Assembly: GCA_002401155.1 (NCBI GenBank)
Contig: NVSG01000002.1
Location: 531,462 to 595,461, forward strand
Origin: Hyphomicrobiales bacterium
GTDB taxonomy: Bacteria > Pseudomonadota > Alphaproteobacteria > Rhizobiales > Rhizobiaceae
Direction of reading: 5' to 3'
Length of the DNA stretch: 64,000 bases
Shown: positions 30,221 through 47,166 of the stretch, in pieces
Layout of the letters: the number at the start of each line of letters is the position of its first letter
How positions within the stretch are numbered: position 1 is the first letter of the stretch
Translations under genes and position numbers: made by a program
The notes under the pieces: generated by a model
Told to the model about the DNA's origin: nothing
Seen by the model: the letters and a program-made list of their open reading frames with translations, nothing else
Database searches by the model: none

Positions 30221-30670
30221 ATGTACACTGCTAAAATTCGCTGGGCGGCGGCTCGACGTATTGTTGAATTGTGCCCGGGTGCGGTTGGTTATCTTGACCG
30301 TCTTATGAATTTAAAGCCGGGCAAGGTCTTTGAACGAGCCTCTCTGGAAAATTGGAATTTGCAGAAAGCGCCAGATAATGCGGATGGCGTTTCCCCCAAC
30401 AATCTGGCGCAAACATTTGTCAGCCTGATCGGCATCGCCCGGCAGGAAATTACGGAATTTGAACGTCCTCAAAAATCGGATGGCCCCTCGGACGGGCGCA
30501 TTCGCTCGCTGGCGACACTGGTGAAAACATTACAAGGGCTGGAAGAGATGCAAAAACGCATGGAAAAGGCGGCGGATGACAAAGTTGTCGACAGCGAAGA
30601 TATATTGGAAATCCACCGACGACTTGCTCGAAAAATTAAAAAAGTTATCCAGCGCGAGAAAAATAACTGA
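30221..30670 (+). CDS. GTA gp1 position; candidate small terminase subunit
   Basis: MYTAKIRWAAARRIVELCPGAVGYLDRLMNLKPGKVFERASLENWNL...RIRSLATLVKTLQGLEEMQKRME; immediately upstream of and overlapping the large terminase. Confidence 0.5.
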   Translation: MYTAKIRWAAARRIVELCPGAVGYLDRLMNLKPGKVFERASLENWNLQKAPDNADGVSPNNLAQTFVSLIGIARQEITEFERPQKSDGPSDGRIRSLATLVKTLQGLEEMQKRMEKAADDKVVDSEDILEIHRRLARKIKKVIQREKNN

Positions 30671-31937
30671 GTTTATTGGTTCGCTGGAAATCGACGATTT
30701 GCAATGGCTCGACAGGGCTTGGCATCTACAGGCACGAAGAAACCAGCGCCCCGAATTGAGCGATTGGCGCACATGGCTTTTACTCGGCGGCAGGGGATCG
30801 GGCAAGACCCGAACCGGCGCTGAATGGATCAAGGCGATTGTGGCAGGCAATAAATTATTTCCCGGCGATGGAGCCGGGCGTATTGCTCTTGTTGGCGGCT
30901 CATTTGCCGATGTGCGTGATGTAATGATCGAAGGGGAATCCGGCTTGCTGGCCATCCACGACAAAGCGGATAGGCCGAAGTGGTTGAGTTCCAAACGTCA
31001 ACTGGAATGGCCCAATGGCACCATTGGTTATGCATTTTCTTCGGAAGACCCGGAGCAATTGCGTGGCAGCCAATTCGGCGCGGCATGGTGCGATGAATTA
31101 GCCAAGTGGCCCTATCTGGATGCCACATGGAACATGCTGCAATTTTGCTTGAGGTTGGGTTCCAACCCGAGGCAGGTCGTGACCACCACGCCGCGCGCGC
31201 TGGAGATGTTGAAGAAACTGATCGCCGATCCTTCGACTGTGATTTCGCGGTCGAAAACCATCGACAATCAATCCCATCTGGCACCGGGATTTATCGACTA
31301 TCTGACCTCTCGATATGGAGGCACACGGTTGGGCCGTCAGGAACTGGATGGAGAACTGATCGAAGACCGCGACGATGCATTATGGACGCGCAAAATGATC
31401 GATGATCTGCGTGCCAAAAGACCGGAAGAACTGCAACGCATTGTGGTTGCAGTTGATCCGCCCGCATCGTCTGGCAAGAGTTCTGATGCCTGCGGTATCG
31501 TTGCCGTTGGACGTGATGGTGCTGGTAAATGTTATGTTCTGCGTGATGCAACTATTCAGCAGGCTAGCCCCATTGAGTGGGCAAACCGAGTGGTATCGAC
31601 CTTCCATGAATTGGAGGCCGACGCCATCATCGCGGAGGTCAATCAGGGGGGGGAAATGGTGAAAACCATTCTCCATACGGTCGACCCAACCGTGCCTGTA
31701 AAAACAGTCCATGCCAGCCGTGGAAAATGGCTGCGGGCAGAACCCGTGGCGCTGCTTTATGAACGAGGAACGGTGCATCACGTGGGCGCATTCGCACAAC
31801 TGGAAGACCAAATGTGCGACTTCGGCCCGAACGGATTATCCTCCGGGCGCTCGCCCGACAGGCTCGACGCGCTGGTATGGGCGATAGCCTCGCTGGCCCT
31901 GCAAAACAACAGCAGACCGCGCATTCGAACGGTCTGA
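30576..31937 (+). CDS. GTA gp2, terminase large subunit
   Basis: DWRTWLLLGGRGSGKTRTGAEWIKAIV...GSQFGAAWCDELAKWPYLDATWNMLQFCLRLG...VAVDPPASSGKSSDACGIVAVGRD. Start uncertain. Confidence 0.92.
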   Translation: MTKLSTAKIYWKSTDDLLEKLKKLSSARKITEFIGSLEIDDLQWLDRAWHLQARRNQRPELSDWRTWLLLGGRGSGKTRTGAEWIKAIVAGNKLFPGDGAGRIALVGGSFADVRDVMIEGESGLLAIHDKADRPKWLSSKRQLEWPNGTIGYAFSSEDPEQLRGSQFGAAWCDELAKWPYLDATWNMLQFCLRLGSNPRQVVTTTPRALEMLKKLIADPSTVISRSKTIDNQSHLAPGFIDYLTSRYGGTRLGRQELDGELIEDRDDALWTRKMIDDLRAKRPEELQRIVVAVDPPASSGKSSDACGIVAVGRDGAGKCYVLRDATIQQASPIEWANRVVSTFHELEADAIIAEVNQGGEMVKTILHTVDPTVPVKTVHASRGKWLRAEPVALLYERGTVHHVGAFAQLEDQMCDFGPNGLSSGRSPDRLDALVWAIASLALQNNSRPRIRTV

Positions 31938-31980
31938 TTTAACTGACTACATCTGATTTCTAACAAGTCTGGATTGGTAT

Positions 31981-33153
31981 ATGAACCGCCTGCTCCAATG
32001 GCTGACACCGTCTGCCAGCAAGCCCGCTCCGCTCGAGCGCAAGAATTATCTGAATTCGATGATCGCCTTTGAAAATGGTACCAGTGCAAACTGGTCGTCC
32101 TCGGACCCCGGGCGTCTTTCGCGAGAAGGATTCTTGAAAAATCCGATTGTCTATCGTTGTATCAGAATGATCGGGGATGCAGGCGCTTCCATTCCTTGGC
32201 AATTGGTTGAGGAAGGTGAAAAACTGGACCAGCATCCAATGCTGGAATTGCTATCAAAACCAAATATGCGGCAATCGGGTTCTGCTTTCATCGAGAAAAT
32301 ATATGGTCATCTTCTGGTCTTCGGTAATGCCTATTTGCATGTAGCAATGCTGGATGGAACGCCGCGTGAACTTCATGCACTGGCACCGGACTGTGTGAAG
32401 GTAATTGCCGGGACGGATGGTTATCCGGCCGCATACGAATATCAGGCAGGGCGCACCAAACAACGCTTTAATGTGGAAGATGATGAGCGACCAATTCTGC
32501 ATCTCGCTCTGGCTAATCCGGTTGACGAAATTTTCGGCCATTCTCCTTTGGCTGCAGCTCACATGGCGTTGGATATTCATAATGCCGCCAGCACATGGAA
32601 CAAGTCATTGCTTGATAATTCTGCGCGTCCTTCCGGCGCACTGATCTATTCGAGCGGTGCAGGTGACAATCTGACCGACGAACAATTTACCCGTCTGAAG
32701 CAAGAGTTGGAAGAAGGTTATGGTGGTGCAATTCGTGCTGGTCGTCCGATGGTTCTGGAAGGCGGGTTGGACTGGAAAGCTATGGGTTACAGCCCGCGTG
32801 ATATGGACTTTATGCAAGCGAAGAATGGAGCGTCGCGCGACATCGCACTGGCCTTCGGCATCCCGCCAATGCTGCTTGGAATTCCCGGTGACAATACCTA
32901 TTCGAACTATAAAGAAGCCAATCGAGCTTTCTGGACGCAAACTGTTTTGCCATTGGTAAAACGCACTGCTGCATCGCTCGGAAACTGGCTTGGTCCGCAA
33001 TTTGGCGACAACATCAAACTGGAATTCAACCGCGAAACCGTCGAAGCCATTGCTCCCGATATGGAGAAGCAATGGGCAAGAATTGGCAGCGCGGAATTCT
33101 TAACCGATAACGAAAAACGCGAAGCACTTGGCTATGGCCCGATTGATGATTGA
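31981..33153 (+). CDS. GTA gp3, HK97-family portal protein
   Basis: VYRCIRMIGDAGASIPWQLVEEGEKLDQHPMLELLSKPN...FGNAYLHVAML...AFGIPPMLLGIPGDNTYSNYKEANRAFW. Confidence 0.93.
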   Translation: MNRLLQWLTPSASKPAPLERKNYLNSMIAFENGTSANWSSSDPGRLSREGFLKNPIVYRCIRMIGDAGASIPWQLVEEGEKLDQHPMLELLSKPNMRQSGSAFIEKIYGHLLVFGNAYLHVAMLDGTPRELHALAPDCVKVIAGTDGYPAAYEYQAGRTKQRFNVEDDERPILHLALANPVDEIFGHSPLAAAHMALDIHNAASTWNKSLLDNSARPSGALIYSSGAGDNLTDEQFTRLKQELEEGYGGAIRAGRPMVLEGGLDWKAMGYSPRDMDFMQAKNGASRDIALAFGIPPMLLGIPGDNTYSNYKEANRAFWTQTVLPLVKRTAASLGNWLGPQFGDNIKLEFNRETVEAIAPDMEKQWARIGSAEFLTDNEKREALGYGPIDD

Positions 33154-33472
33154 TCCCGTACATGATTTGCCGGAAACCGCATGGATATTGTTTGCAAAAG
33201 CAATTGGCGCAGTGGCTGGGTCGGCGATTTCTATCGCCTATATTCTACCAAAAGGTCGGCGTGAAGCAGCGCTGAGGTTCTTGACCGGCGTAGTGATCGG
33301 ACTAATTTTTGGCACCAGTGTCGGTCTGAAACTTGCAACGGAACTGGACCTGTTGGAGCATTTGAGCATCTTTGAAATCTCCCTGACGGGTGCGGCCCTT
33401 GCCAGCCTGTTTGCGTGGTGGGGTCTCGGCATTTTGGCTCGTCTCGGCGAACGCTACAACCTAACCAGATAG
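33146..33472 (+). CDS. GTA gp3.5-like membrane protein (DUF6107-like)
   Basis: Start overlaps the end of gp3; PKGRREAALRFLTGVVIGLIFGTSVGLKLA...LTGAALASLFAWWGLGILAR between portal and protease. Confidence 0.7.
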   Translation: MIDPVHDLPETAWILFAKAIGAVAGSAISIAYILPKGRREAALRFLTGVVIGLIFGTSVGLKLATELDLLEHLSIFEISLTGAALASLFAWWGLGILARLGERYNLTR

Positions 33473-33495
33473 TTATTTTATTGCAGGAGCAATGC

Positions 33496-34185
33496 ATGAA
33501 AAACCATGGCAACCTTATGCTGCGGGAGACGAAGTTTGTCCCGGTCCAATTGAACAAAATACATCTGGATGGCAGCTTCAGCGGCTATGCCAGCGTGTTT
33601 GATGAAGTCGATCTGGGCAATGATATTGTTTTGCCCGGAGCCTTCAAAAATTCACTGAAAAATCGCACGCCATCCGATATCCGCATGTTGTTTCAGCATA
33701 ACCCTGATGAACCGATCGGGGTCTGGAATGAAATCCGCGAAGATCAACGGGGTCTGAAAGTTTCTGGACAAATCACAACCGGAATTTCCAGAGGCGCAGA
33801 GATATTGGAACTGATGCGGGCAGGGGCCATTGATGGTCTTTCCATCGGCTTTAAAACTGTGCGTTCTCGAAAGGACCTCATCCGCAAAATTCGAAAAATT
33901 ATCACTGCAGATTTGTGGGAAATATCGATTGTGACTTTCCCCATGCAATCGGGTGCCCGCATCGACGTGGTGAAATCCAGACACATAAATTCGCGCCCGA
34001 CAATTCGCGAATTTGAAAAGTGGCTCACGCAGGATGCTGGGCTGACACGGCGCGATGCAAGAGCCTTCATTCAAAAAGGCCACGCGCATATGGCAAGCAC
34101 GCGGGACGCTGCTTCGCAAGTGAACCCAAACTTGGCTGACCACATTCGTGCGGCCACCAAAACTATTAATCCAAGGAGCAGATAA
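33496..34185 (+). CDS. GTA gp4, HK97-family prohead protease
   Basis: LDGSFSGYASVFDEVDLGNDIVLPGAFKNSLK...MLFQHNPDEPIGVWNEIREDQRGLKVSGQI...GAIDGLSIGFKTVR. Confidence 0.92.
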   Translation: MKNHGNLMLRETKFVPVQLNKIHLDGSFSGYASVFDEVDLGNDIVLPGAFKNSLKNRTPSDIRMLFQHNPDEPIGVWNEIREDQRGLKVSGQITTGISRGAEILELMRAGAIDGLSIGFKTVRSRKDLIRKIRKIITADLWEISIVTFPMQSGARIDVVKSRHINSRPTIREFEKWLTQDAGLTRRDARAFIQKGHAHMASTRDAASQVNPNLADHIRAATKTINPRSR

Positions 34186-35438
34186 TGAAAAATGAGCAAG
34201 GCCAAATGGCCCCAGAAACAAAAGCAATCGGCGATGATGTCGCCAATGCGTTTGATGAATTCATGCAGGCGTTTGAAGCGTTCAAGGAAAGTAATGATGA
34301 TCGGCTGAGCCAACTGGAATCCGGCAATAGCGCTGATATAGTCACCACTCAGAAAATGAACCGCATTAACCGGTCGCTTGATGAACAAAAAGCGCGCATG
34401 GATGAACTGGCATTGAAAAATCAACGCCCGGCAATCAATGGCTCTCAGCCGCTGACAAATGTTCAGTTCGAACATAAAAACGCCTTTGCCGATTACATTC
34501 GAAGAGGCAATGAAAACGGTCTGCGTCTGTTCGAAGAAAAAGCCATGTCCTATGGTAGCAATCCGGATGGTGGCTATCTGGTGCCCGATGAAACGGCCAC
34601 TGAAATTGGTAAACGTCTGGCCGCAATTTCGCCAATTCGTTCTATCGCTTCAGTGAAGACCATTTCTTCGGCGCTTTATAAAAAGCCGTTCGCCATCACT
34701 GGACCGGCAACTGGCTGGGTTGCAGAAACCGATGCCCGTCCGCAAACCTCAACGGCTACTTTGAGCGAGTTGCAGTTTCCAACCATGGAGCTCTACGCAA
34801 TGCCTGCGGCGACCTCCATGTTGCTTGATGATGCTGCAGTGGATATCGACGCATGGATCGGCGAGGAAGTGGAAACCGTCTTTGCCGAACAGGAAGGAGC
34901 GGCCTTCATCAATGGTGATGGGGTGAACCGGCCCAAGGGCCTGTTGACCAACACAACGGTTGCAGAATCCAGTTGGTCTTGGGGTAAGCTTGGTTACGTC
35001 GTTACTGGCTCAGATGGTGCTTTTCCGGGGTCCGATGCATCCGACATTCTGATTGAAAATATCTATGCATTGAAAGCTGGATATCGTCAGAATGCGAACT
35101 GGGTGATGAACCGAAAAACGCAAGCGGAAATCAGAAAACTCAAAGATGCTGATGGCAATTATCTCTGGCAGGCTCCGGCAGGTGCTGGCGCCAGTGCATC
35201 CTTGATGGGGTTCCCATTGGTGGAAGCTGAAGACATGCCTGATATTGCCAGCGACTCGCTCTCGATTGCCTTTGGTGATTTCCGACGGGGCTATTTGATC
35301 GTGGACCGTTCGGGCGTGCGCGTGTTGCGCGATCCGTATTCCGCAAAACCCTATGTGCTGTTCTACACCACCAAACGTGTTGGCGGCGGAGTGCAGGATT
35401 TTGACGCGATCAAGCTTCTGAAATTCGGCACAGCGTAA
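34185..35438 (+). CDS. GTA gp5, HK97-family major capsid protein
   Basis: NPDGGYLVPDETATEIGKRLAAISPIRSIASVKTIS...EEVETVFAEQEGAAFINGDGVNRPKGLL...SVGVRVLRDPYSAKPYVLFYTTKRVGGGVQDFDAIKLLK (C-terminal capsid motif). Confidence 0.94.
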   Translation: MKNEQGQMAPETKAIGDDVANAFDEFMQAFEAFKESNDDRLSQLESGNSADIVTTQKMNRINRSLDEQKARMDELALKNQRPAINGSQPLTNVQFEHKNAFADYIRRGNENGLRLFEEKAMSYGSNPDGGYLVPDETATEIGKRLAAISPIRSIASVKTISSALYKKPFAITGPATGWVAETDARPQTSTATLSELQFPTMELYAMPAATSMLLDDAAVDIDAWIGEEVETVFAEQEGAAFINGDGVNRPKGLLTNTTVAESSWSWGKLGYVVTGSDGAFPGSDASDILIENIYALKAGYRQNANWVMNRKTQAEIRKLKDADGNYLWQAPAGAGASASLMGFPLVEAEDMPDIASDSLSIAFGDFRRGYLIVDRSGVRVLRDPYSAKPYVLFYTTKRVGGGVQDFDAIKLLKFGTA

Positions 35439-35534
35439 CGGTTTTCCTCCCGAACCGTTTTCCGTGAAAGCGGAAATTGCTGCCGTAGCGGCCTTGTTTT
35501 CTCAAAGTAAAATTTGAGCAGGCGAGGCCGTTTC
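35437..35534 (+). promoter_or_regulatory. Three consecutive hairpins between gp5 and gp6
   Basis: AACGGTT/AACCGTT; TTTCCG-tgaaag-CGGAAA; CGGCCT...CTCAAA-gtaaaa-TTTGAG...AGGCCG then TTTCTATTTG. Confidence 0.65.
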
Positions 35535-35559
35535 TATTTGCATAGATTGGAAATTTTGA

Positions 35560-36117
35560 ATGACGACATCCCTTGTTCAGCCGCCAGCTACAACGCCGGT
35601 TTCGCTTACTCAGGCCAAAACTCACTTGCGCGTAGATACCAGTGCCGAAGATGATTACATTTTGGATTTGATCAGCACCGCAACGACATTTGTGGAGCAG
35701 ACAATTAGCCGAAAACTCATCACCCAGACCTGGCGACAATATGTGGAAAAAATTGGTTCCGAGCGAACGGTTCTCTTGGAAATAAGGCCTCCCCAATCGA
35801 TTGTGGAAGTTACCGCTTATGATGAAGCAGGTACACCAACGGTGTTGAATGTGCAGGACTATTCGCTCAATCAATATGCTTCACCGCCAACGGTTACGCT
35901 CAATATTACTGCATCAACCGCGATGGTTGAACTCGATGTGATTGCAGGCTTTGGTGACACCGGCGCCGATGTGCCGGGAACTTTGCTAAGAGCAATTTTA
36001 GTGCTGGTGGGTCATTGGTATGAATTTCGCGGTGCAATCGATGTAGCCGAACAACCCGCTTCAATTCCTTCCGGATTCCAGATCCTGTTGGCACCCTATA
36101 TGGAGCCGAAAATCTGA
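35560..36117 (+). CDS. GTA gp6, head-tail connector
   Basis: VSLTQAKTHLRVDTSAEDDYILDLISTATTFVEQTISRKLITQTW...ILVLVGHWYEFRGAI. Confidence 0.9.
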   Translation: MTTSLVQPPATTPVSLTQAKTHLRVDTSAEDDYILDLISTATTFVEQTISRKLITQTWRQYVEKIGSERTVLLEIRPPQSIVEVTAYDEAGTPTVLNVQDYSLNQYASPPTVTLNITASTAMVELDVIAGFGDTGADVPGTLLRAILVLVGHWYEFRGAIDVAEQPASIPSGFQILLAPYMEPKI

Positions 36118-36452
36118 TGGTAAAACCAATCATTCAATCCGGTTCATTTCGCCGAAGGGTAACATTGCAGGAAGAAACCGAAACGCCGGACGGGTGTGGC
36201 GGTTTCACCACCGGTTGGGTTTCCGTATCCGATATCTGGGCGCAAATCACGCCGGTGGGAAGTGCCTCAATTTCGAGGGCAGACAACGTGGATCAGGAAG
36301 TCACCCACACGGTGATGGTTCGAAAAACAGGCAACTTGCAGCAAGGAATGCGCTTGTTATTTGGCAGCAGAATTTTCCTGATTAACTCGGTTTATGACCC
36401 GGATGAAACCGGCAGATACACCCAATGCGATGTACGCGAGCAAAGTTCATAA
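36117..36452 (+). CDS. GTA gp7, head-tail adaptor / head closure protein
   Basis: FRRRVTLQEETETPDGCGGFTTGWVSVSDIWAQITPVG...VTHTVMVRKTGNLQQGMRLLFGSRIFLINSVYDPDE. Confidence 0.9.
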   Translation: MVKPIIQSGSFRRRVTLQEETETPDGCGGFTTGWVSVSDIWAQITPVGSASISRADNVDQEVTHTVMVRKTGNLQQGMRLLFGSRIFLINSVYDPDETGRYTQCDVREQSS

Positions 36453-36474
36453 GTACTGATGATGGAGAGAGACT

Positions 36475-36879
36475 ATGCATCCCGCAATTGCCCTTCAGGC
36501 CGAAATTTTTACGACGCTGATAGCTTCCACAGATTTGGCTACCGCCCTTGGTGGGGCCTTCATTTATGACGATGTGCCAAATGGCCAAAAACCACCTTAC
36601 ATTATTTTTGGAACCGCCGTTTATTCCAACTGGTCGACCTCGACAGAGGACGGCACCGAGCACACCATTTTACTGGATATCTGGTCAACGGAAAATGGCA
36701 GAAAGCAGGTGTTGGAAATTTCCCAACACATCGTGGAGGCGCTCGATGCACTACCGAAAATTATCTCCGGCCATCACCTGATCAACATGACAAATGAGAG
36801 TCTTGAGGTCTCACACAATGCGCAAAGCGGTTACTTCCACGGCACGTTGAATTACCGCGCCATCACCGAACCTGCATAA
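36475..36879 (+). CDS. GTA gp8, DUF3168 tail completion protein
   Basis: ALQAEIFTTLIASTDLATALGGAFIYDDVPNGQKPPYIIFGTAVYSNWSTSTEDGTEHTILLDIWS. Confidence 0.9.
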   Translation: MHPAIALQAEIFTTLIASTDLATALGGAFIYDDVPNGQKPPYIIFGTAVYSNWSTSTEDGTEHTILLDIWSTENGRKQVLEISQHIVEALDALPKIISGHHLINMTNESLEVSHNAQSGYFHGTLNYRAITEPA

Positions 36880-36896
36880 ATTAGAGGAAAGAAATC

Positions 36897-37310
36897 ATGG
36901 CCGCCCAAAAAGGCAAAGACCTGTTGTTGAAAATTGATGTCGATAATGTCGGCAGCTTTGAAACCGTCGCAGGCATTCGCTCGCGCCAATTATCGTTCAA
37001 TGCAGAAACGGTGGATGCCACCGATTCAGAATCCGCCGGTCGCTGGCGTGAATTGCTCGGTGGCGCAGGATTACGCAGCGCGTCTCTATCGGGCGTCGGC
37101 ATCTTCAAAGATGCTTCGTCGGATGAAAAAATACGTCACCAATTTTTCGATGGATTGATCAGCCCATGGCAAATCGTAATCCCGAATTTCGGCGTGATGG
37201 AAGGATTGTTCCAGATCACGGCAATCGAATATTCCGGCGAACATAGCGGCGAAGTTGCATTTGAGATCGCCCTGCAGTCAGCCGGGCAAATCGCATTCAC
37301 GGGGGCCTGA
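36897..37310 (+). CDS. GTA gp9, TP901-1 family major tail protein
   Basis: MAAQKGKDLLLKIDVDNVGSFETVAGIRSRQLSFNAETVDATDSESAGRWRELLGGAGLRSASLSGVGIF. Confidence 0.93.
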   Translation: MAAQKGKDLLLKIDVDNVGSFETVAGIRSRQLSFNAETVDATDSESAGRWRELLGGAGLRSASLSGVGIFKDASSDEKIRHQFFDGLISPWQIVIPNFGVMEGLFQITAIEYSGEHSGEVAFEIALQSAGQIAFTGA

Positions 37311-37312
37311 AT

Positions 37313-37681
37313 ATGGTCAACAAATTACGCGGTGAAATTGCTGCCAGTCTCGATGGAAAGCCGTGGACCTTGTGTCTTACTCTTGGCGCTTTGGCCGAGT
37401 TGGAAGAGCAACTTGAAGCGGATGATTTGTCATCATTGGCAGCGAAATTTACCAGCGGAAAACTATCCGCAAAGCATTTGCTGGCGATCATCGGAGCGGG
37501 TCTGCGCGGTGGCGGTCACAATGTGAACGATAGCGAGGTCGCAGAAATGCGAGTTGAGGGTGGCATTACCGGCTATGCGCGGATCGCGGCAGAGCTTTTG
37601 AAAGCGACCTTCAATACGGAGCAACAACCCGCAAACCCGCTGCCGCCGCAGGAAGCCAATCCTTCCCCTGGAAACAGGTGA
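37313..37681 (+). CDS. GTA gp10, gene transfer agent family protein
   Basis: NKLRGEIAASLDGKPWTLCLTLGALAELEEQLEADDLSSLAAKFTSGKLSAKHLLAIIGAGLRGGG. Confidence 0.9.
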   Translation: MVNKLRGEIAASLDGKPWTLCLTLGALAELEEQLEADDLSSLAAKFTSGKLSAKHLLAIIGAGLRGGGHNVNDSEVAEMRVEGGITGYARIAAELLKATFNTEQQPANPLPPQEANPSPGNR

Positions 37682-37839
37682 TGGCTTATGGCCTCGGTTA
37701 CCTGCGGCTAAATCCGACCAGCTTTTGGCAACTGTCATTGCAGGAATTTCATGCAGCCGTTTCATACGATTCATCCACACGTGGTTTGATGTCTTCATCC
37801 GCGTTGGAAGAATTGATGCACCATTATCCCGATAATTGA
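37681..37839 (+). CDS. GTA gp10.1, tail assembly chaperone (52 aa)
   Basis: MAYGLGYLRLNPTSFWQLSLQEFHAAVSYDSSTRGLMSSSALEELMHHYPDN; starts on the gp10 stop (TGATG); not in the ORF track. Confidence 0.85.
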   Translation: MAYGLGYLRLNPTSFWQLSLQEFHAAVSYDSSTRGLMSSSALEELMHHYPDN

Positions 37840-37851
37840 GCGGAATTTCTT

Positions 37852-38286
37852 ATGCCTCATAACGACACCCATAGATTTGATATCGATACGTCCGGTTTTG
37901 AAAATGCTTTGAAAGACATGAGCCGATTGACCGAGGATTTTGGCAGGATATTTACCTCCACCATAAAATCTGCTGTGGTCTCTGGCAATTCTTTCGAAGA
38001 TAGCTTGCGCTCCATCGCGCTTAGAATCTCCGGACTGGCGTTGACTAAATCGCTTGCACCATTGGAGTCATTGGTCGGTTCCTTTGTCGGGAATCTGACA
38101 AATTCGGTTCTCGGCTCCTCATCCGGTGGCGGTGGTCCATTGGGAATTGGATTACAAAGTGGGGCCGCGCCAACAAACATCTCCTTCAATGTGAACGCCA
38201 CAAACGCAACAAGCTTTGCCCAATCTGAAGGACAGATTTCAGCCTTGCTTGCACGGGCTGTCGCACGCGGTCAACGCGGTCTTTAA
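37852..38286 (+). CDS. GTA gp11, short tape measure protein
   Basis: FDIDTSGFENALKDMSRLTEDFGRIFTSTIKSAVVSGNSFEDSLRSIALRISGLALTKSLAPLESLVGSFVGNL...TNATSFAQSEGQISALLARAVARGQRGL. Confidence 0.85.
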   Translation: MPHNDTHRFDIDTSGFENALKDMSRLTEDFGRIFTSTIKSAVVSGNSFEDSLRSIALRISGLALTKSLAPLESLVGSFVGNLTNSVLGSSSGGGGPLGIGLQSGAAPTNISFNVNATNATSFAQSEGQISALLARAVARGQRGL

Positions 38287-38307
38287 CTTTCAAAAATCGA
38301 GAAAATT

Positions 38308-38955
38308 ATGACAGATACAGGCTTTCACGAAGTCCGTTTCCCGACGGATATCGCACGCGGGGCCATCGGTGGTCCGCTGCGAAATACCCAGATTGTTGCG
38401 CTTGCCTCCGGGCATGAACAACGCAACACCCGATGGGCCCATTCCCGGCGCAAATATAATGTCGGTTATGGTATGAAAACCCTTGATGATCTCTATCAGG
38501 TGATCTCGTTTTTCGAACAACGCCGAGGAAAATTATACGGGTTCCGTTTTCGCGATGCCTTCGATTTTAAATCTTGCAGCCCGGGTGATACCATCTCGGC
38601 GCAAGATCAGGATATCGGAACCGGCGATGGAACAGCCACAAGTTTCGCTCTAAGAAAAACCTATGGCACGGGCATCAGTGCTTATGTGCGGATCATCGGC
38701 AAGCCAGTTGCTGGAACGGTTGAGATTGAGGTGGGTGGAGCGCCGCAGGTTCTGGATACGGACTTCACACTCGATCCGACATCAGGCGCAATCGAGTTTT
38801 TGCCGGGTAGCATACCGCCCGATGGAGAGACAATCAGCGCCGGCTTTGAGTTCGATGTAGCGGTGCGTTTTGACGTGGATGAAATTACCGTCAATCTTCG
38901 CGCGTTTCAGGCAGGCGACATACCTTCGATTCCCTTGGTGGAGGTGTTGCTGTGA
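38308..38955 (+). CDS. GTA gp12, DUF2460 protein
   Basis: GFHEVRFPTDIARGAIGGPLRNTQIVALASGHEQRNTRWAHSRRKYNVGYGMKTLDDLYQVISFFEQRRGKLYGFRFRDAFDFKSC. Confidence 0.95.
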   Translation: MTDTGFHEVRFPTDIARGAIGGPLRNTQIVALASGHEQRNTRWAHSRRKYNVGYGMKTLDDLYQVISFFEQRRGKLYGFRFRDAFDFKSCSPGDTISAQDQDIGTGDGTATSFALRKTYGTGISAYVRIIGKPVAGTVEIEVGGAPQVLDTDFTLDPTSGAIEFLPGSIPPDGETISAGFEFDVAVRFDVDEITVNLRAFQAGDIPSIPLVEVLL

Positions 38956-39842
38956 GAAACATCTCGTCTGCCATGCAATCCCATCTGGATTGCGAAGTAA
39001 CGACGCTTTGTCGATGCTGGATACTGACTCGCAAGGATGCCGTGGTGATGGGATTTACCGATCACGATGGCGATATTCTGCTTAACGATGTCGCCTGCCA
39101 GTCGATCAGCGGCATGGAGGCCAGTGCCATTGAAGCGAGCCTCGGATTTTCTGTCGATGGTCAGGAAGTTTCCGGTGCACTGAGTTCATCCGCCATCAGC
39201 GATGAGGACATTGAGGCAGGAAAACTTGATGGCGCAACGATCGAAGTCGTCGTTGTAAACTGGTCAAATGTAAATCAATATTTTCCAGAAAGCTCCCACA
39301 TCATCGGCGATATTATTCGCGAAGACGAACACTTCCGCGCCGAGCTTCGTAGTCACACCGCGTTGATGGACCAAAGCAAAGGGCGGCATTTTGTAAGGCA
39401 TTGTCAGGCCGATTTGGGCGATGGGCAATGCGGGGTGAGCATTGCAGATGCGGCATTCACCAAACCCGGTTCGGTTGTGTCGACGGATTCATCCGTCGTT
39501 CTGGTGGTTTCTGGTCTTGGCGGCCTGCCAGCAGGGTGGGCCAGAGGAGGGCTGCTTAAATGGGTATCAGGACAAAACATCGACCAGAATATTGAAATCG
39601 CCGAACACTATTTCGAGCAGGACCGGGTGTTCCTACACCTTTGGAAGCCAATGTCACATCTGCCGCAATTTGGTGACACGTTTCAAATCACCACCGGCTG
39701 CGACAAGACATTTGCTACCTGCAAAGCCAAGTTTCTGAATGGTTTAAATTTTCGCGGATTTCCCCATCTCCCCGGCAATGATTTTGCAGCAAGCTATGCC
39801 AGCAATTCCAAAAAAATGGACGGGGGCGCATTGATCAAATGA
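38952..39842 (+). CDS. GTA gp13, DUF2163 / phage BR0599 family protein
   Basis: TTLCRCWILTRKDAVVMGFTDHDGDILLNDVACQSISGMEASAIEASLGFSVDGQEVSGALSS...CDKTFATCKAKFLNGLNFRGFPHLPGNDF. Confidence 0.95.
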   Translation: MRNISSAMQSHLDCEVTTLCRCWILTRKDAVVMGFTDHDGDILLNDVACQSISGMEASAIEASLGFSVDGQEVSGALSSSAISDEDIEAGKLDGATIEVVVVNWSNVNQYFPESSHIIGDIIREDEHFRAELRSHTALMDQSKGRHFVRHCQADLGDGQCGVSIADAAFTKPGSVVSTDSSVVLVVSGLGGLPAGWARGGLLKWVSGQNIDQNIEIAEHYFEQDRVFLHLWKPMSHLPQFGDTFQITTGCDKTFATCKAKFLNGLNFRGFPHLPGNDFAASYASNSKKMDGGALIK

Positions 39843-40294
39843 CATCAAATCAAGATGCCCAACGCATCATAAATGAAGCGCGTGGCTGGATTGGTACGCC
39901 CTATATTCATCAGGCATCTGCCAAGGGGCAGGGGGCGGATTGCCTTGGTTTGATCCGGGGTGTTTGGCGTGCGATTTTTGGCGAGGAGCCGGAAACAATG
40001 CCAGCCTATTCCCCTGACTGGGGGGAAATTGACGGCGAAGAAACCATGTTGAACGCGGCAAAAAGGCATTTTCTTCCACTGGCGATAGATGACCTTGGTC
40101 CGGGGGATCTGGTCATCTTTCGATGGAAGCAGGTGGTGATTGCAAAACATGCTGGCATCCTGACTTCGGACCGGCATTTCATTCATGCATTTGAACGCGC
40201 AGGGGTTGTTGAAACCACCCTCGGCAATCCATGGCGCGCGCGCATCGCCGCTGGTTTCCGATTTCCCGATATCCCCCAGAAATCCCAAAGTTAG
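39839..40294 (+). CDS. GTA gp14, NlpC/P60 family peptidase
   Basis: IINEARGWIGTPYIHQASAKGQGADCLGLIRGVWRAIFGEEPE...KHAGILTSDRHFIHAFERAGVVE. Confidence 0.94.
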   Translation: MTSNQDAQRIINEARGWIGTPYIHQASAKGQGADCLGLIRGVWRAIFGEEPETMPAYSPDWGEIDGEETMLNAAKRHFLPLAIDDLGPGDLVIFRWKQVVIAKHAGILTSDRHFIHAFERAGVVETTLGNPWRARIAAGFRFPDIPQKSQS

Positions 40295-40303
40295 AGAAAT
40301 AAA

Positions 40304-43300
40304 ATGGCAACAATCCTGCTACAAGTTGTTGGCTCCGCCGTTGGCGGTGCAATTGGCGGACCGTTTGGGGCCGTATTGGGCCGGGCAATTGGCGGCATTG
40401 CAGGTGCCGCAATCGACCAGCAATTATTTTCCAAAGATCAGGTTATTCAAGGCCCTCGTTTGGACGCCGCTCGGTTTTTAACATCAAGCGAAGGGGCTGC
40501 CATTCCGAAGACTTACGGCCAGACGCGTTTAGGCGGACAGATCATCTGGGCCACCCGTTTCAAGGAAAACATCACGACAGAAACCAGCAGCGGCGGGGGA
40601 GGAGGAGGCAAAGGCGGCGGCAGTGGACCAAAAACCACGACCACAACTTACTCCTATTCTGCAAATTTTGCAGTTGGAATTTGTCAGGGGCCAATTTCAG
40701 GAATTCGCCGAATTTGGGCAGATGGAAGCGAACTCGATCTCACAACAATTGAATATCGATTGTACCGGGGAACAGAGGATCAGGAGCCCGACCCGTTGAT
40801 CGAGGCCAAGCAGGGCAGCAACAATGCACCAGCCTATCGCGGCACCGCCTATATTGTTTTCGAAGCGCTGCCTCTGGAAAAATATGGCAATCGGGTTCCG
40901 CAAATTTCGGTAGAAATTATCCGCCAGATTGATGGTCTCGGGCCAAAGATCAAATCAATCACTGTCATTCCGGGTGCCACAGAATTTGGTTATCTGCCGC
41001 AGGCCGCAAATTCGAGTGCGCCATCTTCAGAAGTATATAGAGTACGAAACCGGCATAACACGATTGCTTCGACCGACTGGCAAGCCTCAATTGATGAATT
41101 GCAGATGATGTGTCCAAACCTTGAAACGGTATCTTTGGTCATCGCATGGTTTGGAACCGATTTGCGCGCAGGCCAATGTGATATCCGTCCAAAGGTTGAA
41201 CATCAAAGCGATTCGTTGACCGCCGAAAAATGGCAGGTATCCGGCATCACTGCCGGCACGGCGCAGGAAGTGTCGCGTATTAGCGGCAACCCTGCCTTTG
41301 GAGGCACTCCATCTGACCACACAATTCTTGCAGCAATTGCCGATCTTAAATCGCGCGGCTTAAAGGTGATGCTATATCCCTTTATCCTGATGGATATTCA
41401 GGATGGAAATGCCAAGCAAGATCCATACGGTAATCCGGAACAAGCAGCTTTCCCGTGGCGTGGCATGGTCACTTGTAACCCCGCAATTGACCAGCCAGCA
41501 ACCGCTGATCAGACATCGCTGGCAGGAAGTCAAATAACAGATTTTTGCGGCAATGCTGCTGTTGGAAACTTTCCGATATCCGGCAATTCGGTTGGTTATT
41601 CAGGACCGGCCGAATGGTCTTTTCGCCGAATGATTTTGCACTATGCAAAAATTGGAGCACTGGCCGGAGGTTTGGATGGCTATATTATCGGCTCCGAAAT
41701 GCGCGGACTGACTTCGGTGCGCGATGATGTTGGAAATTTTCCATTCGTCTCACAATTGGTCGCCCTGTCTGATGATGTGAAATCGGTGCTGGGAAGCTCA
41801 TGCAACGTTACCTATGCCGCGGATTGGTCTGAGTATTTCGGCTATCATCCTCAGGATGGCAGCAACGATATCTACTTCAATCTGGACCCTCTCTGGGCCA
41901 ATGATTCTATCGATACAATTGGCATCGACAATTATATGCCCTTGTCTGATTTGCGCGATGGTAATGAATTCCAACCCGGTATTTCGGTCGAAAATTTGCA
42001 GCAGCAAATCAACAGCGCGGAGGGTTATGACTGGTTTTATGCCTCAAGCGAAGATCGGTTGAGTTCTACCCGAACGCCGATAACCGACGGTCTCAACGAA
42101 CCATGGGTTTGGCGCTACAAGGACTTGGTTTCGTGGTGGGAAAATGACCACCATGAGCGGGTGAATGATGTGCGCTCAGCCAGCCCCACCGCTTGGGTTC
42201 CACAAAGCAAACCATTGGTCTTCACAGAGATCGGTTGCCCGGCAATCGACAAAGGCTCCAACCAACCCAATGTGTTTTATGATGAGAAATCGGATCAATC
42301 CGACATCCCGTATTTTTCTACCGGTGGCAGAGATGATCTGGTACAGAACCGTTTTCTACAGGCGCATTTTGCCCATTGGGATTCAAACAATCCCGATTTT
42401 GATCCGCTGGATAATCCCTCTTCGTCGCAATATTCCGGACGTATGATTGATCCTTCTGATATTGCCATTTGGACGTGGGACGCGCGACCATTTCCGTGGT
42501 TTCCGCAACTCAGCAGTGTCTGGAGTGACGGGCCAAATTGGCAACGCGGTCATTGGCTAAACGGTCGGCTTGCCGGATGTCCGCTCGACAGTTTGATCTC
42601 GGTCATCATGCAAGATTTTGGCTATACGAATTTCAGATGTCAGGTCGATGGATTTGTCGATGGTTATCTGGTTCCAAACGCGATTTCCCTGCGTCTTGCT
42701 TTGGAACCGTTGGTAGCGCTGTTCGGTATTTTGATCAGCGAGGAAGACAGTATAATTGTTTTCCGCAGCAAGGCATATTGTCCACGCCCTGTAATTCTAC
42801 CATTGGATATTGTTCAGGAAAAAGACCAACCGGCATTCGTTTATAATCGAGAGCATGAAGCCGAATTGCCCCGCGAAGCCATCGTAAGTCACACTTCAAT
42901 TTCAGGAAATTACGAACAAACCAGCACAAAAACCCGGCGGCTTGTCACCAATAGCGAGCGGCAGGTCACCATGTCGCTTCCAATGGTGTTGCCGAGTGGG
43001 GCTGCCTCCGTCGCAGGGGAAGAACGCATTCGAGATTTTTGGGTTGCGCAGGATAAATTGCAATTTGCGCTGGGGCAGAAATACTCAATGCTCAGCCCTG
43101 GTGATATCATCACTTTCGACGAAGGCGACGATAGAAAATGGTTGGTGGAGCAGGCCGACACCGGCAACCACCGAATGTTTAAAACACGCGCTATCGCTGA
43201 TCTGCCAAAACCTGCGCGCAATCAGGGCGATTTCAGCTCAATCGAAAGCGCGTTGCAAATTGCCGGCCCGGCCTCGGTGGAACTGATGGACTTGCCCCTA

Positions 43301-44209
43301 TTGGCCAATGACGATGCCACCGGGCCGGTTTCCCATTGTGCCGTGTTTGCAAATCCATGGGTAGGGACACATCTGGCGCTTTCGTCACCCACAACCAGCG
43401 GCTTTCAGCTAAGGGCGCAAAACGAAATTCCTTCTACTATAGGAGAACTTTTGGAACCTTTGGGTGCTGGCCCCTCAGGGCGCTGGGATTTGGGGTCGCA
43501 ATTGCATGTGACCGTTTATTTCAATGCTCTGCAATCTGTCGCGGAAGATCTGGTGCTCAACGGAGCCAATGCACTCGCCGTTAAATGCAATAATGGCGGT
43601 TGGGAAATCATTCAGTTTACCGATGCGCTTCTGCAAGAGGATGGCAGCTGGATATTATCCAATTTGCTGCGGGGCCAGCTTGGGAGCGAGGAGGAGATGG
43701 CGTCAGGAGCGCTTGCGGGGAGCCGCATCGCCCTGCTCAATCAGGCAATTACCCCCATTCAGCTGGAGAGCTATGAAAAAGGGCTTGAATTGAATTGGCA
43801 AATAGGGCCGCTCAATGAACCTTATGGATCAGGCTCATATATCTCGCTGATCCACGCAAATAATGGTCGTTCAAAACAAGCATTCAGTCCGGTTCATCTA
43901 CGGAGCAACCAAGAAACTAACGGTGACATTTCGCTTAACTGGATCAGGCGTTCGCGGCTGGATGCCGATAGTTGGGAGGGGGTGGAAATTCCCTTGGGCG
44001 AAAGTTCCGAGCGCTACCAAATTCGAATTCTGGATGTCTCCGATACGGAGCTGCGGGTTCTAGAAACATCTATTGCCAACGCGACATATACCGACGCCAT
44101 GCGCATCGAAGATTTTGGCTCCGGCAGCGGCACGGTGAAGTTTTCCATTGCACAAATCGCCAGTTCCGGCCTGCCGGGAGCAGAGCGAAGCGTGAGTATT
44201 TCTTATTAA
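40304..44209 (+). CDS. GTA gp15, baseplate multidomain protein megatron
   Basis: 1301 aa; VVGSAVGGAIGGPFGAVLGRAIGGIAGAAIDQ...SSGGGGGGKGGGSGPKTTTTTYSYSANFAVGICQGPI...TIM-barrel-like KPLVFTEIGCPAIDKGSNQPNVFYD. Confidence 0.95.
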   Translation: MATILLQVVGSAVGGAIGGPFGAVLGRAIGGIAGAAIDQQLFSKDQVIQGPRLDAARFLTSSEGAAIPKTYGQTRLGGQIIWATRFKENITTETSSGGGGGGKGGGSGPKTTTTTYSYSANFAVGICQGPISGIRRIWADGSELDLTTIEYRLYRGTEDQEPDPLIEAKQGSNNAPAYRGTAYIVFEALPLEKYGNRVPQISVEIIRQIDGLGPKIKSITVIPGATEFGYLPQAANSSAPSSEVYRVRNRHNTIASTDWQASIDELQMMCPNLETVSLVIAWFGTDLRAGQCDIRPKVEHQSDSLTAEKWQVSGITAGTAQEVSRISGNPAFGGTPSDHTILAAIADLKSRGLKVMLYPFILMDIQDGNAKQDPYGNPEQAAFPWRGMVTCNPAIDQPATADQTSLAGSQITDFCGNAAVGNFPISGNSVGYSGPAEWSFRRMILHYAKIGALAGGLDGYIIGSEMRGLTSVRDDVGNFPFVSQLVALSDDVKSVLGSSCNVTYAADWSEYFGYHPQDGSNDIYFNLDPLWANDSIDTIGIDNYMPLSDLRDGNEFQPGISVENLQQQINSAEGYDWFYASSEDRLSSTRTPITDGLNEPWVWRYKDLVSWWENDHHERVNDVRSASPTAWVPQSKPLVFTEIGCPAIDKGSNQPNVFYDEKSDQSDIPYFSTGGRDDLVQNRFLQAHFAHWDSNNPDFDPLDNPSSSQYSGRMIDPSDIAIWTWDARPFPWFPQLSSVWSDGPNWQRGHWLNGRLAGCPLDSLISVIMQDFGYTNFRCQVDGFVDGYLVPNAISLRLALEPLVALFGILISEEDSIIVFRSKAYCPRPVILPLDIVQEKDQPAFVYNREHEAELPREAIVSHTSISGNYEQTSTKTRRLVTNSERQVTMSLPMVLPSGAASVAGEERIRDFWVAQDKLQFALGQKYSMLSPGDIITFDEGDDRKWLVEQADTGNHRMFKTRAIADLPKPARNQGDFSSIESALQIAGPASVELMDLPLLANDDATGPVSHCAVFANPWVGTHLALSSPTTSGFQLRAQNEIPSTIGELLEPLGAGPSGRWDLGSQLHVTVYFNALQSVAEDLVLNGANALAVKCNNGGWEIIQFTDALLQEDGSWILSNLLRGQLGSEEEMASGALAGSRIALLNQAITPIQLESYEKGLELNWQIGPLNEPYGSGSYISLIHANNGRSKQAFSPVHLRSNQETNGDISLNWIRRSRLDADSWEGVEIPLGESSERYQIRILDVSDTELRVLETSIANATYTDAMRIEDFGSGSGTVKFSIAQIASSGLPGAERSVSISY

Positions 44210-44234: not shown

Positions 44235-44441
44235 ATGGTTAGTGAAAAATCATGGTTTGAATCGAAAACGATCTGGGGCGCATTGCTCGCGGTTGCGGCG
44301 GCAGTGGCCGGTGCATTTGGAGTTTCCATCGATGACAGCGCTCAACAGGGCATTGCCGATGCATTGGTACAACTTGCCGGTGCTGCAGGTGCGCTACTTG
44401 CAATTTATGGTCGTCTGACCGCCACCGATATGATCGATTAG
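44235..44441 (+). CDS. Small phage holin-like membrane protein
   Basis: KSWFESKTIWGALLAVAAAVAGAFGVSIDDSAQQGIADALVQLAGAAGALLAIYGRLTATDMID; two hydrophobic segments; 25 bp after gp15. Confidence 0.6.
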   Translation: MVSEKSWFESKTIWGALLAVAAAVAGAFGVSIDDSAQQGIADALVQLAGAAGALLAIYGRLTATDMID

Positions 44442-44445
44442 GAAC

Positions 44446-44679
44446 GTGGCCTTGATCAGGATGATCATAATTGTCGCCAAAGCACTGCATGCTCTGGTCG
44501 ACATATTGTCAAAAGCAGCGGCAAGGCAGCGTCAAAAGCTGGTAAAAATCACTGAAGCGCAAGCGCTCGGATTCCGAAAAATCAGGAAAGCAACCAATGC
44601 CCGGAATAAAGTGCGTCAGTCTTTTAATCATAATTCTGCTGCTGACATCCTGCCAGACGATCCCTACAAAAGAGACTAG
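44446..44679 (+). CDS. Putative i-spanin (Rz-like) small protein
   Basis: N-terminal hydrophobic stretch then charged helix ...KIRKATNARNKVRQSFNHNSAADILPDDPYKRD; overlapped out of frame by a lipoprotein ORF. Confidence 0.5.
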   Translation: MALIRMIIIVAKALHALVDILSKAAARQRQKLVKITEAQALGFRKIRKATNARNKVRQSFNHNSAADILPDDPYKRD

Positions 44680-44797
44680 CGGAACGGGTTGGGAATGCAC
44701 CGCATTTGAACCCATTCGTTGGTCCGATGAAGATACCCGAGAGACCACAGGTCAAATTATGGAGCACAATTCTGTCTGGCAGGCCCTATGCAGATGA
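44597..44797 (+). CDS. Putative o-spanin (Rz1-like) lipoprotein
   Basis: MPGIKCVSLLIIILLLTSCQTIPT (lipobox LTSC) then TAFEPIRWSDEDTRETTGQIMEHNSVWQALCR; different frame, starts inside the 44446 ORF. Confidence 0.6.
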   Translation: MPGIKCVSLLIIILLLTSCQTIPTKETSGTGWECTAFEPIRWSDEDTRETTGQIMEHNSVWQALCR

Positions 44798-44864
44798 TTT
44801 TGGGCTAATCCGGATTTTCAAATCGTTCATATACGGTTCAGTATTGATGGGGTATATTCTCCAC

Positions 44865-45107
44865 ATGATCAAGATATTCTACACAATTGCACTATTGGCG
44901 CTAGTAAGCGTAATTGGACCAGCCGCAAACGCTGCAAATTGCAGAGATGTTGCGGCTGCGCGTATTGATGTACGAAATGGCGCGCAGATTTTAGGTGTGC
45001 GTAGCGAAAAAGGTGCTTATGGCAAAACCATTTGTGTCGTGACGGTTCGTCAAAGAGGCAAACCGGGCATGAGGCCTCGTGTCGTGACACGAAAATTTAG
45101 ACCATAA
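44865..45107 (+). CDS. Small periplasmic protein, candidate FeuN-like
   Basis: Signal peptide MIKIFYTIALLALVSVIGPAANA then PepSY-like NGAQILGVRSEKGAYGKTICVVTVRQRGKPGMRPRVVTRKF; directly upstream of feuP. Confidence 0.5.
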   Translation: MIKIFYTIALLALVSVIGPAANAANCRDVAAARIDVRNGAQILGVRSEKGAYGKTICVVTVRQRGKPGMRPRVVTRKFRP

Positions 45108-45121
45108 TTTCGGGACCAGCC

Positions 45122-45799
45122 ATGCGCATATTAATTATCGAAGACGACAAGAACCTCAACCGGCAATTGCAGGAAGCCTGCGTTGATGCCGGTTATGTGG
45201 TTGATGTGGCTTTTGACGGTGAGGAGGGGCATTTCCTTGGCGATACTGAACCCTATGATGTGGTGGTTCTCGATATTGGTCTACCCGATAAAGACGGACT
45301 AACCATTCTTGAAGAATGGCGCCGCGACGGGCGTGATATGCCGGTTCTGATGCTAACCGCAAGGGATCGCTGGAGTGACAAGGTCTCCGGTATTGACGCT
45401 GGTGCCGATGATTATGTCACCAAGCCATTCCATATTGAAGAAGTTTTGGCCCGCTTGAGGGCGCTTATTCGCCGGTCCGCCGGCTTGTCTACTTCCGTCA
45501 TCGAGTGTGGTCCGGTCTCCCTTGATACCCGAACCTCTAAAGTCAGTTGTGAGGGGCGTCACATCAAGCTGACTTCCCACGAGTTTCGTCTCTTATCCTA
45601 TCTGATGCATCATCAGGAAAAAGTGATTTCGCGTACCGAACTGACCGAACATCTATACGATCAGGATTTCGATAAGGATTCCAACACAGTTGAAGTTTTC
45701 GTTGGCAGGATTCGCAAAAAACTCGATGTTAATTGTATTGAGACCGTAAGGGGGCTTGGCTATCGTCTTCTTGCTCCTTCGTCAGATAATGCCGAATGA
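45122..45799 (+). CDS. feuP: Response regulator FeuP (OmpR family)
   Basis: MRILIIEDDKNLNRQLQEACVDAGYVVDVAFDGEEGHFLGDTEPYDVVVLDIGLPDKDG...EHLYDQDFDKDSNTVEVFVGRIRKKL. Confidence 0.82.
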   Translation: MRILIIEDDKNLNRQLQEACVDAGYVVDVAFDGEEGHFLGDTEPYDVVVLDIGLPDKDGLTILEEWRRDGRDMPVLMLTARDRWSDKVSGIDAGADDYVTKPFHIEEVLARLRALIRRSAGLSTSVIECGPVSLDTRTSKVSCEGRHIKLTSHEFRLLSYLMHHQEKVISRTELTEHLYDQDFDKDSNTVEVFVGRIRKKLDVNCIETVRGLGYRLLAPSSDNAE

Positions 45800-47166
45800 G
45801 GGCCAGTACGCTTTCTGGACGACTGTTTCTGATTCTGTCCGCATGGACTGTGATTGCCGTGATGGTGATCGGATTTTTGATTACCGCAGATTACCGCAAC
45901 AGTGCTGAACAACGCTTTGAAAAAGTTCTCATCGCTAATGTTTTCGCCCTGATGGGTGCGATCCGTCAGGATGATGACGGCAAGTTGATTGGCTCCCCGA
46001 ATCTCGGTGACGCACGGTTCCAGCAATATGAATCTGGCTGGTATTGGTCGATAAGTTCGACCGTTTTCCCCGAAAACAAACTATCCTCTCTCTCCCTTTC
46101 CTCCCAATCTTTGATGGCTCCCGAAACCGTCAAATTCAACGAGGAATTTCAGCGGCAGTTTCCTAAAATGGGAGCCAATGGCACTGAACTGATCGTTCAT
46201 GAGGCGCAGGTGATTTTGGGTGAGGGGGATGAAGTTTTCAGTTTCAAAGTGGCCGGCAATAAAAGTGAAATCGACGATGATGTCGCAAATTTCGTGGCAC
46301 GATTGATCGTGATTTTGGGAGTATTTGGTTTTTCTCTGGTTCTGGCCTCTTATTTTCTGGTGCGGCTCGGTTTGCGTCCTCTTGCTGGGGCTACGAGGGC
46401 GCTGGAAGATATTCGCGATGGAAAATCAGAGCGCATTGATGGCATTTACCCCAGTGAAGTGCAGCCCCTGATAGATGAAACCAATGCGCTGCTGCGTTCA
46501 AACAAGGCGGTGATTGAACGGGCGCGGACGCAGGTCGGCAATCTCGCCCATTCGTTAAAAACGCCAATTGCCGTTATTCGTAACGAACTGACCCCCAATA
46601 AATTAAAAGATAAAACGATATCCCCGGATCTGCTATTAGAGCAGGTTGGGCAGATGCAGGATCAAATCCAGATTTATCTCGATCGGGCAAGAATCTCTGC
46701 ACGCCATGCCACCGTGACCTCCAGAACCGATGCAAACACTGCCATCAAAAAACTAGTCAGGGTCATTGGGAAGCTGAACCCGAATCTTGAAATTATTTTC
46801 GAAAACCAGCAGGTAGAACCGCTACTTTTTGCCGGGGAAGAAAGTGATTTTCAGGAAGTTATCGGAAACCTCCTTGAGAATGCTTCAAAATTCGCCACTT
46901 CCCAAATTACCATCACCGCTTCCACGCTAAACCAAAAAAATCTTGTAATCTCCATCGAGGATGATGGTCCCGGCCTGTCAGAAGCAGAAGCTAAAACTGT
47001 TCTTGGCAGGGGCAAACGGTTGGATGAAAGCAAACCCGGCTCCGGGCTTGGACTTTCCATCGTCAAAGATATTCTCAAGGAATATCGCGGCGAAATGCAA
47101 CTGACCAAATCGAGCCTTGGCGGCTTGAAAGTAGAACTAAGGCTGCCTTCCATAAAACCAAAATAA
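45796..47166 (+). CDS. feuQ: Sensor histidine kinase FeuQ
   Basis: HK with NLAHSLKTPIAVIRNEL and GSGLGLSIVKDILKEYRGEMQL; ATGA overlap with feuP. Confidence 0.8.
   Translation: MRASTLSGRLFLILSAWTVIAVMVIGFLITADYRNSAEQRFEKVLIANVFALMGAIRQDDDGKLIGSPNLGDARFQQYESGWYWSISSTVFPENKLSSLSLSSQSLMAPETVKFNEEFQRQFPKMGANGTELIVHEAQVILGEGDEVFSFKVAGNKSEIDDDVANFVARLIVILGVFGFSLVLASYFLVRLGLRPLAGATRALEDIRDGKSERIDGIYPSEVQPLIDETNALLRSNKAVIERARTQVGNLAHSLKTPIAVIRNELTPNKLKDKTISPDLLLEQVGQMQDQIQIYLDRARISARHATVTSRTDANTAIKKLVRVIGKLNPNLEIIFENQQVEPLLFAGEESDFQEVIGNLLENASKFATSQITITASTLNQKNLVISIEDDGPGLSEAEAKTVLGRGKRLDESKPGSGLGLSIVKDILKEYRGEMQLTKSSLGGLKVELRLPSIKPK

Follow-up and report, generated by a model that had tools for sequence, protein, structure and literature searches.

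A probable lysis module at the end of a GTA locus in Hyphomicrobiales, without a linked endolysin

Gene transfer agents (GTAs) are domesticated-phage gene clusters that carry bacterial DNA from cell to cell. Detailed knowledge of how their particles leave the host is limited to R. capsulatus, which uses an unlinked holin and endolysin, and Caulobacter, which uses LypABC. A locus on contig NVSG01000002.1 of a Hyphomicrobiales bacterium raises the question for another group: here three small genes lie directly after gp15 of an RcGTA-type cluster, ahead of feuNPQ. A preliminary description of the 64,000-nucleotide stretch of DNA analysed here (the window) had read them as a lysis-like cassette linked to gp15 and made up of a holin-like gene and an out-of-frame spanin pair. 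Profile matches, synteny and parallels in phages and prophages support that reading, with lytic function itself inferred. We conclude, without expression data, that the trio is most probably a lysis module that closes the RcGTA-type GTA of Hyphomicrobiales and, in this genome, has no endolysin linked to it.

Synteny from gp2 to gp15 at a conserved chromosomal site identifies the element as an RcGTA-type GTA (Table 1). A probable gp1/TerS lies just 5' of the gp2 cluster, gp14 is an NlpC/P60 protein, and tblastn revealed a syntenic cluster in L247, L248, L253 and L290, all of which share the YcgN-like left flank. Beyond gp15, which ends at 44209, the gene order is holin-like, Rz-like, Rz1-like, FeuN-like, feuP and feuQ, all on the plus strand. 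The assembly holding the window is 2.8 Mb in size and 66% complete, and the nearest named relative of the source genome is MAG NORP335 (called Rhizobiaceae). To the left of the GTA, at 25388-26514 of the window, two adjoining minus-strand genes encoding small proteins, membrane or secreted, sit beside a penicillin-binding-protein-like gene.

Table 1. Features of the GTA locus and its flanks, in window coordinates
Feature	Position	Strand	Basis
Gene for a YcgN-like CxxCxxCC protein, the conserved left neighbour of the GTA locus	28930..29370	+	PF03692, 1e-12
RcGTA-type structural cluster, gp2 (terminase) to gp15	30576..44209	+	ORF table; tblastn synteny; gp15 homologs
Holin-like gene (68 aa; ATG start, AAAGGA upstream)	44235..44441	+	phrog_34682; hydropathy; AlphaFold2; conservation after gp15
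i-Spanin-like (Rz) gene (77 aa from GTG)	44446..44679	+	start GTG 44446 or TTG 44452; hydropathy; profile-profile match
o-Spanin-like (Rz1) lipoprotein gene (66 aa; ATG start, AGGA upstream)	44597..44797	+	phrog_1275; alignments; frame relation
FeuP-box-like motif TTCA-N7-TTCA; probably opens the feuNPQ unit and bounds the GTA lysis cassette on its 3' side	44826..44840	+	exact match
FeuN-like small secreted protein gene (start approximate)	44849..45107	+	ORF; relatives carry a homolog immediately 5' of feuP
feuP and feuQ, two-component regulator genes beside the GTA locus	45122..47166	+	tblastn synteny

The first protein of the trio carries the motif K-x-W-[YF]-x-S-[KR]-T-I-W. Pfam and NCBIfam searches of the three proteins returned nothing usable, and tblastn against 50,697 phage records gave no match to the holin or Rz and only two weak matches to Rz1. 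Comparison with PHROGs revealed that the 68-aa protein matches phrog_34682 (holin) at 1.3e-12 and also phrog_4712. Its Kyte-Doolittle hydropathy peaks at residues 10-36 and 39-61, and AlphaFold2 places helices at 11-27 and 34-67 with moderate confidence (pLDDT 71, pTM 0.39); the membrane topology is a prediction only. Small, with two helices and with phage holin homologs, the protein has the attributes of a two-helix holin, and its PHROG match, hydrophobic helices and synteny bear out the two-TM holin-like protein first proposed to follow gp15. The formation of a timed membrane lesion is an inference.

The next two genes resemble a spanin pair. Taken as a single sequence, Rz scored only 0.14 against phrog_1026; a profile of nine GTA-linked Rz proteins, by contrast, matched a prophage/phage Rz profile, some members of which match PHROG Rz families, with 95.4% probability (E 1.7e-8) over nearly its whole length, including a C-terminal D-x-x-x-R-D-like end. 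By hydropathy alone, Rz has the N-terminal transmembrane segment of an i-spanin (Kyte-Doolittle maximum 2.0, residues 3-21), which is weaker in the Rz of L026 (maximum 1.1). The alternative start at TTG 44452 is better spaced from its AGGA than GTG 44446. For Rz1 the match is to phrog_1275 ('Rz-like spanin', 1e-12), and the protein has both the signal peptide, predicted from hydropathy, and the lipobox cysteine of an o-spanin: its signal segment ends in the lipobox LTSC (LLLTSC), whose Cys19 is invariant across GTA and prophage members. Columns kept between the GTA and prophage versions are the lipobox Cys, two further Cys, P39, D46, T50 and N58. Rz1 is read in the +1 frame of Rz, overlaps it by 83 nt and extends past its end, and this +1 overlap is kept in all 12 other loci inspected, GTA-linked and prophage alike. 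The conserved frame relation, together with the invariant or near-invariant Rz1 columns, rules out a chance overlap.

Thus, the 77-aa Rz-like protein of the preliminary description stands, by virtue of its family profile, as does the lipobox-bearing Rz1-like protein that begins inside it in another frame. Either of two outcomes would have refuted that description, an Rz frame without a transmembrane segment or an overlap that is not conserved, and neither was obtained. Its term 'nested' needs correction: nested or embedded pairs are lambda-like, while in overlapped, P2-like pairs the o-spanin runs past the i-spanin (PMC6139136), and because Rz1 runs past Rz the present pair is overlapped. Disruption of the outer membrane by Rz and Rz1 is inferred, without complementation data.

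Substitution rates could be judged from one informative close pair, L028/L029, in which dN/dS was 0.11 for the holin, 0.13 for Rz and 0.18 for Rz1 (0.18 also outside the overlap); L138 and L026 are too similar to tell, and the holin value against the nearest relative is 0.07 but with saturated dS. Low as they are, these ratios suggest purifying selection on all three genes, as far as a single informative pair allows.

In S. meliloti, a TTCA-N7-TTCA sequence ahead of feuN is the proposed site for FeuP (PMC3616915), and a box of this type lies 29 nt beyond Rz1. The motif is not rare alone, with three found in the window compared to 4.9 expected. It occurs within 500 nt 5' of feuP in 81 of 96 distinct regions (0.74 expected over 140 loci), and 8-57 nt 3' of the Rz1 stop in 10 of the 10 loci checked. 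The trio therefore precedes the feu promoter region and, at the gp15/feuNPQ junction, belongs with the GTA. (The name FeuN is taken from S. meliloti feuN (PMC3616915) and rests on gene position rather than on compared sequences.) A sigma-70/terminator scan, which performed at chance level, detected no terminator-like site separating Rz1 from feuN, and read-through is therefore possible. The trio could accordingly be imagined as part of the feuNPQ stress/envelope regulator unit and not of the GTA, given the shared strand and the lack of a detected terminator-like site; we find this scarcely tenable in view of the box after Rz1, the phage family matches, the linkage to gp15 and the persistence of the feu genes where the GTA has been deleted. 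L024 and L025 have lost the GTA from the interval that separates the YcgN-like gene from feuNPQ; what remains is Rz1 alone, or the C-terminus of the holin with Rz and Rz1. Transcription of the trio only with feuPQ, named at the outset as a further way to refute a GTA cassette, is argued against by the position of the box and is not disproved by it; co-transcription with gp15 is likewise an inference.

The linkage to gp15, which according to the preliminary description would be notable, is real and is not peculiar to the source genome. Homologs of gp15 occur in 153 of 200 same-family genomes and the holin domain in 149 of 200. Among the matches listed, 123 family genomes have the holin 3' of gp15 on the same strand (median gap, 71 bp); once four with more than 1.8 kb between the two genes are set aside, direct adjacency holds in about 120 of the 200. 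Seven other family genomes (L026, L027, L028, L029, L031, L032 and L033) have the complete order gp15-holin-Rz-Rz1-feuP. Most Rhizobiaceae are without spanins: Rz1 was detected in 15 of 200 genomes by a single-sequence scan and in 22 of 200 by a profile scan, the extra matches being mostly weaker and of unexamined locus context. Those spanin-less relatives that were read have the order gp15-holin-feuN-feuP. The nearest relative (L002/G001) retains gp15, the holin and feuNPQ and has no spanins, so even members of one genus differ in whether they have the pair. The absence of spanins from L002 and from most Rhizobiaceae indicates that the holin can do its work, whatever that is, without them.

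Across the order, gp15 occurs in 205 of 298 genomes, holin-domain matches in 76 and Rz1 matches in 47, with the holin within 10 kb 3' of gp15 in 56. Rz1 sits beside feuP in 21 of 29 other loci examined, in 21 genomes from eight other Hyphomicrobiales families; many of these loci also have the holin, and some gp15, within a 3-kb stretch. The association is thus widespread in Hyphomicrobiales GTAs, and the recurrence of holin and Rz1 at the GTA locus in both family and order excludes a lineage-specific oddity. A class-wide scan found the holin in 10 of 215 genomes, none of them with gp15 beside it outside the order, and 20 other gp15 loci located by name (19 from Rhodobacterales, one from Pseudaminobacter) gave no holin match, several having little sequence beyond gp15. 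In L235, L236, L242 and L245, from several families, a DUF2793-type gene lies between gp15 and the holin (PF10983 was tested in L235 only); it is possibly a tail or host-specificity gene.

The same proteins are found in phage-like settings. Most of 80 viral-contig loci with the holin are GTA clusters. Three phage-like contigs (L157, L158 and L163) have the order endolysin-like gene, holin, short Rz and overlapping Rz1; in cassettes of this type the endolysin-like gene matches phrog_894 at 9.5e-4 and Rz1 matches phrog_8971 at 2.3e-14. In L211 a GH108 endolysin gene precedes the holin, separated from it by one small ORF. Separately, a number of IMG/VR 'viral' contigs of about 14 kb (L164, L166, L170, L175, L179-L181, L188, L190 and others) are GTA clusters trimmed just 3' of the holin gene.

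Where, then, is the endolysin? None is visible in the trio or between gp15 and feuP, as had been pointed out from the start, and the linked endolysin that makes a phage lysis cassette complete is lacking here, whereas other families have it. Judged by the names of the Pfam families, the RcGTA genes rcc00555 and rcc00556 belong to PF05838 (GH108) and PF11351 (GTA_holin_3TM), respectively. Neither PF11351 nor GH108 was found in the source genome or the complete-trio relatives (25 genomes searched), and an RcGTA-type lysis locus with both families was accordingly not detected; GH108 appeared in only one related genome searched (G183), where the GTA itself is deleted. GH24 was not found in the complete-trio relatives (25 genomes searched), and the endolysin search in the trio genomes was limited to these two glycoside hydrolase families. 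A search of the source genome for an orphan endolysin recovered one GH24 muramidase, about 550 kb away on the same contig, which its location in a Mu-like prophage rules out as a GTA gene. This muramidase, in prophage L287 (G000:C3:16000-34000), has a C-terminal hydrophobic segment, and a neighbouring gene encodes a membrane protein that may be a holin. gp14 was set aside by analogy with R. capsulatus gp14, which is needed for entry, not release (PMC3423380). Because the source assembly is so incomplete, absence from it proves little, while absence from near-complete relatives means more. We infer that the endolysin serving the trio is encoded elsewhere, and it is unidentified.

In many genomes of the order, gp15 and the holin stand 1.1-1.6 kb apart, since the latter forms the C-terminal domain of a larger protein (loci including L238, L239, L240, L241, L246, L249, L250, L254 and L301-L316). 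Pfam detected a muralytic domain in 24 of 25 such proteins scanned (L237 has none): GH108, usually with a CHAP-like and/or PG_binding_3 region; GH19 with PG_binding_1; or GH24. Shortly 5' of the holin domain, 18 of 23 fusions have an in-frame ATG with a Shine-Dalgarno match of at least 5 nt, compared to 5 of 136 control internal Met codons of the same fusions (Fisher p about 4e-15, an overstatement because the fusions are related to one another and, where up to three Met codons lay close by, the best one was scored). On the simplest reading of these sequences, internal initiation would yield a free holin, and it is possible that one fusion gene gives rise to two products, an endolysin-holin and a free holin; if true, a single gene would supply two lysis proteins by an unusual route. 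The free holin of the window looks like the downstream half of such a two-protein lysis gene. A working hypothesis, about which we are slightly more doubtful than convinced, is that the slot between gp15 and feuNPQ is a dedicated Hyphomicrobiales GTA lysis locus, in which an endolysin with an in-frame embedded holin and an internal start is the ancestral or an alternative form; Rhizobiaceae would have lost the endolysin part and kept the holin, with or without the spanin pair, in a split or endolysin-free lysis programme distinct from those of R. capsulatus and Caulobacter.

The lack of a linked endolysin, the patchy spanins and an Rz that is short and unrecognised by its own sequence all weigh against a lysis module. 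The trio might instead be a decaying remnant of an ancestral prophage, no longer lytic, with losses proceeding piecewise, endolysin first and spanins after. Such decay could account for an endolysin present in other families and not here, for spanins missing from most Rhizobiaceae and the nearest relative, and for the orphan Rz1 or truncated-holin pieces that remain after GTA deletion. We nonetheless think it unlikely: the frames are intact, dN/dS is low, the holin is nearly universal beside gp15, arguing that it at least is kept by selection, and where the trio is present it is complete in seven relatives.

It is also conceivable that the two-helix protein is a membrane factor other than a holin, acting in assembly, release timing or anchoring (a freed endolysin anchor, for example), and that Rz and Rz1 are incidental. 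Its fusion to endolysins in other families could simply reflect a membrane anchor, and the PHROGs holin labels rest on annotation. Against this stand the phage contigs, which place the free protein between endolysin and spanins, and the internal Shine-Dalgarno and ATG of the fusions, which suggest that a free form is made; we consider a non-holin role quite unlikely.

If the trio is a lysis module, the holin would lesion the inner membrane as particle assembly finishes, and a peptidoglycan hydrolase encoded outside the module would then degrade the wall. Rz in the inner membrane and Rz1, as an outer-membrane lipoprotein, would subsequently join or disrupt both membranes, and the cell would open to let the GTA particles leave. 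Were a lysis module to sit within the GTA locus in many species of Hyphomicrobiales, release could be studied in tractable rhizobia by deleting named genes, and selection for host lysis would travel together with the particle genes.

We found no description of this module in the open-licence literature on GTA spanins, Rz1, feuP or Hyphomicrobiales holins, judged mostly by title and abstract, and this is not proof of novelty. The closest phage parallels are the P2-type overlapped spanins and the lambda S-R-Rz-Rz1 order, which share an N-terminally hydrophobic i-spanin and a lipobox o-spanin that starts inside it at +1 and passes it, both after a holin (PMC6139136); unlike in those cassettes, the module here has no endolysin, the i-spanin is short and the carrier is a GTA instead of a replicating phage. 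C. crescentus faces the same release problem with an RcGTA-type element and solves it by LypABC, with no canonical holin or endolysin (PMC13236601, PMC9632790). Given that precedent, the use of a phage-like module by a GTA cannot be assumed. VSH-1 represents an unrelated GTA lineage, in a spirochaete. This GTA of Brachyspira hyodysenteriae encodes a putative holin and a confirmed endolysin (PMC3423380), and is alike in having GTA-encoded lysis genes, without any sequence comparison. RcGTA of Rhodobacter capsulatus, with its endolysin (rcc00555) and holin (rcc00556), is of the same GTA lineage and shares holin-type lysis release (PMC3423380, PMC6209664). There, however, holin and endolysin are encoded away from the structural cluster (PMC6209664, PMC8601537) and no spanin has been reported, while here the lysis genes are linked to the cluster and include a spanin pair. 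Thus, the textbook GTA keeps its lysis genes elsewhere, whereas its Hyphomicrobiales relatives appear to keep theirs at the end of the GTA.
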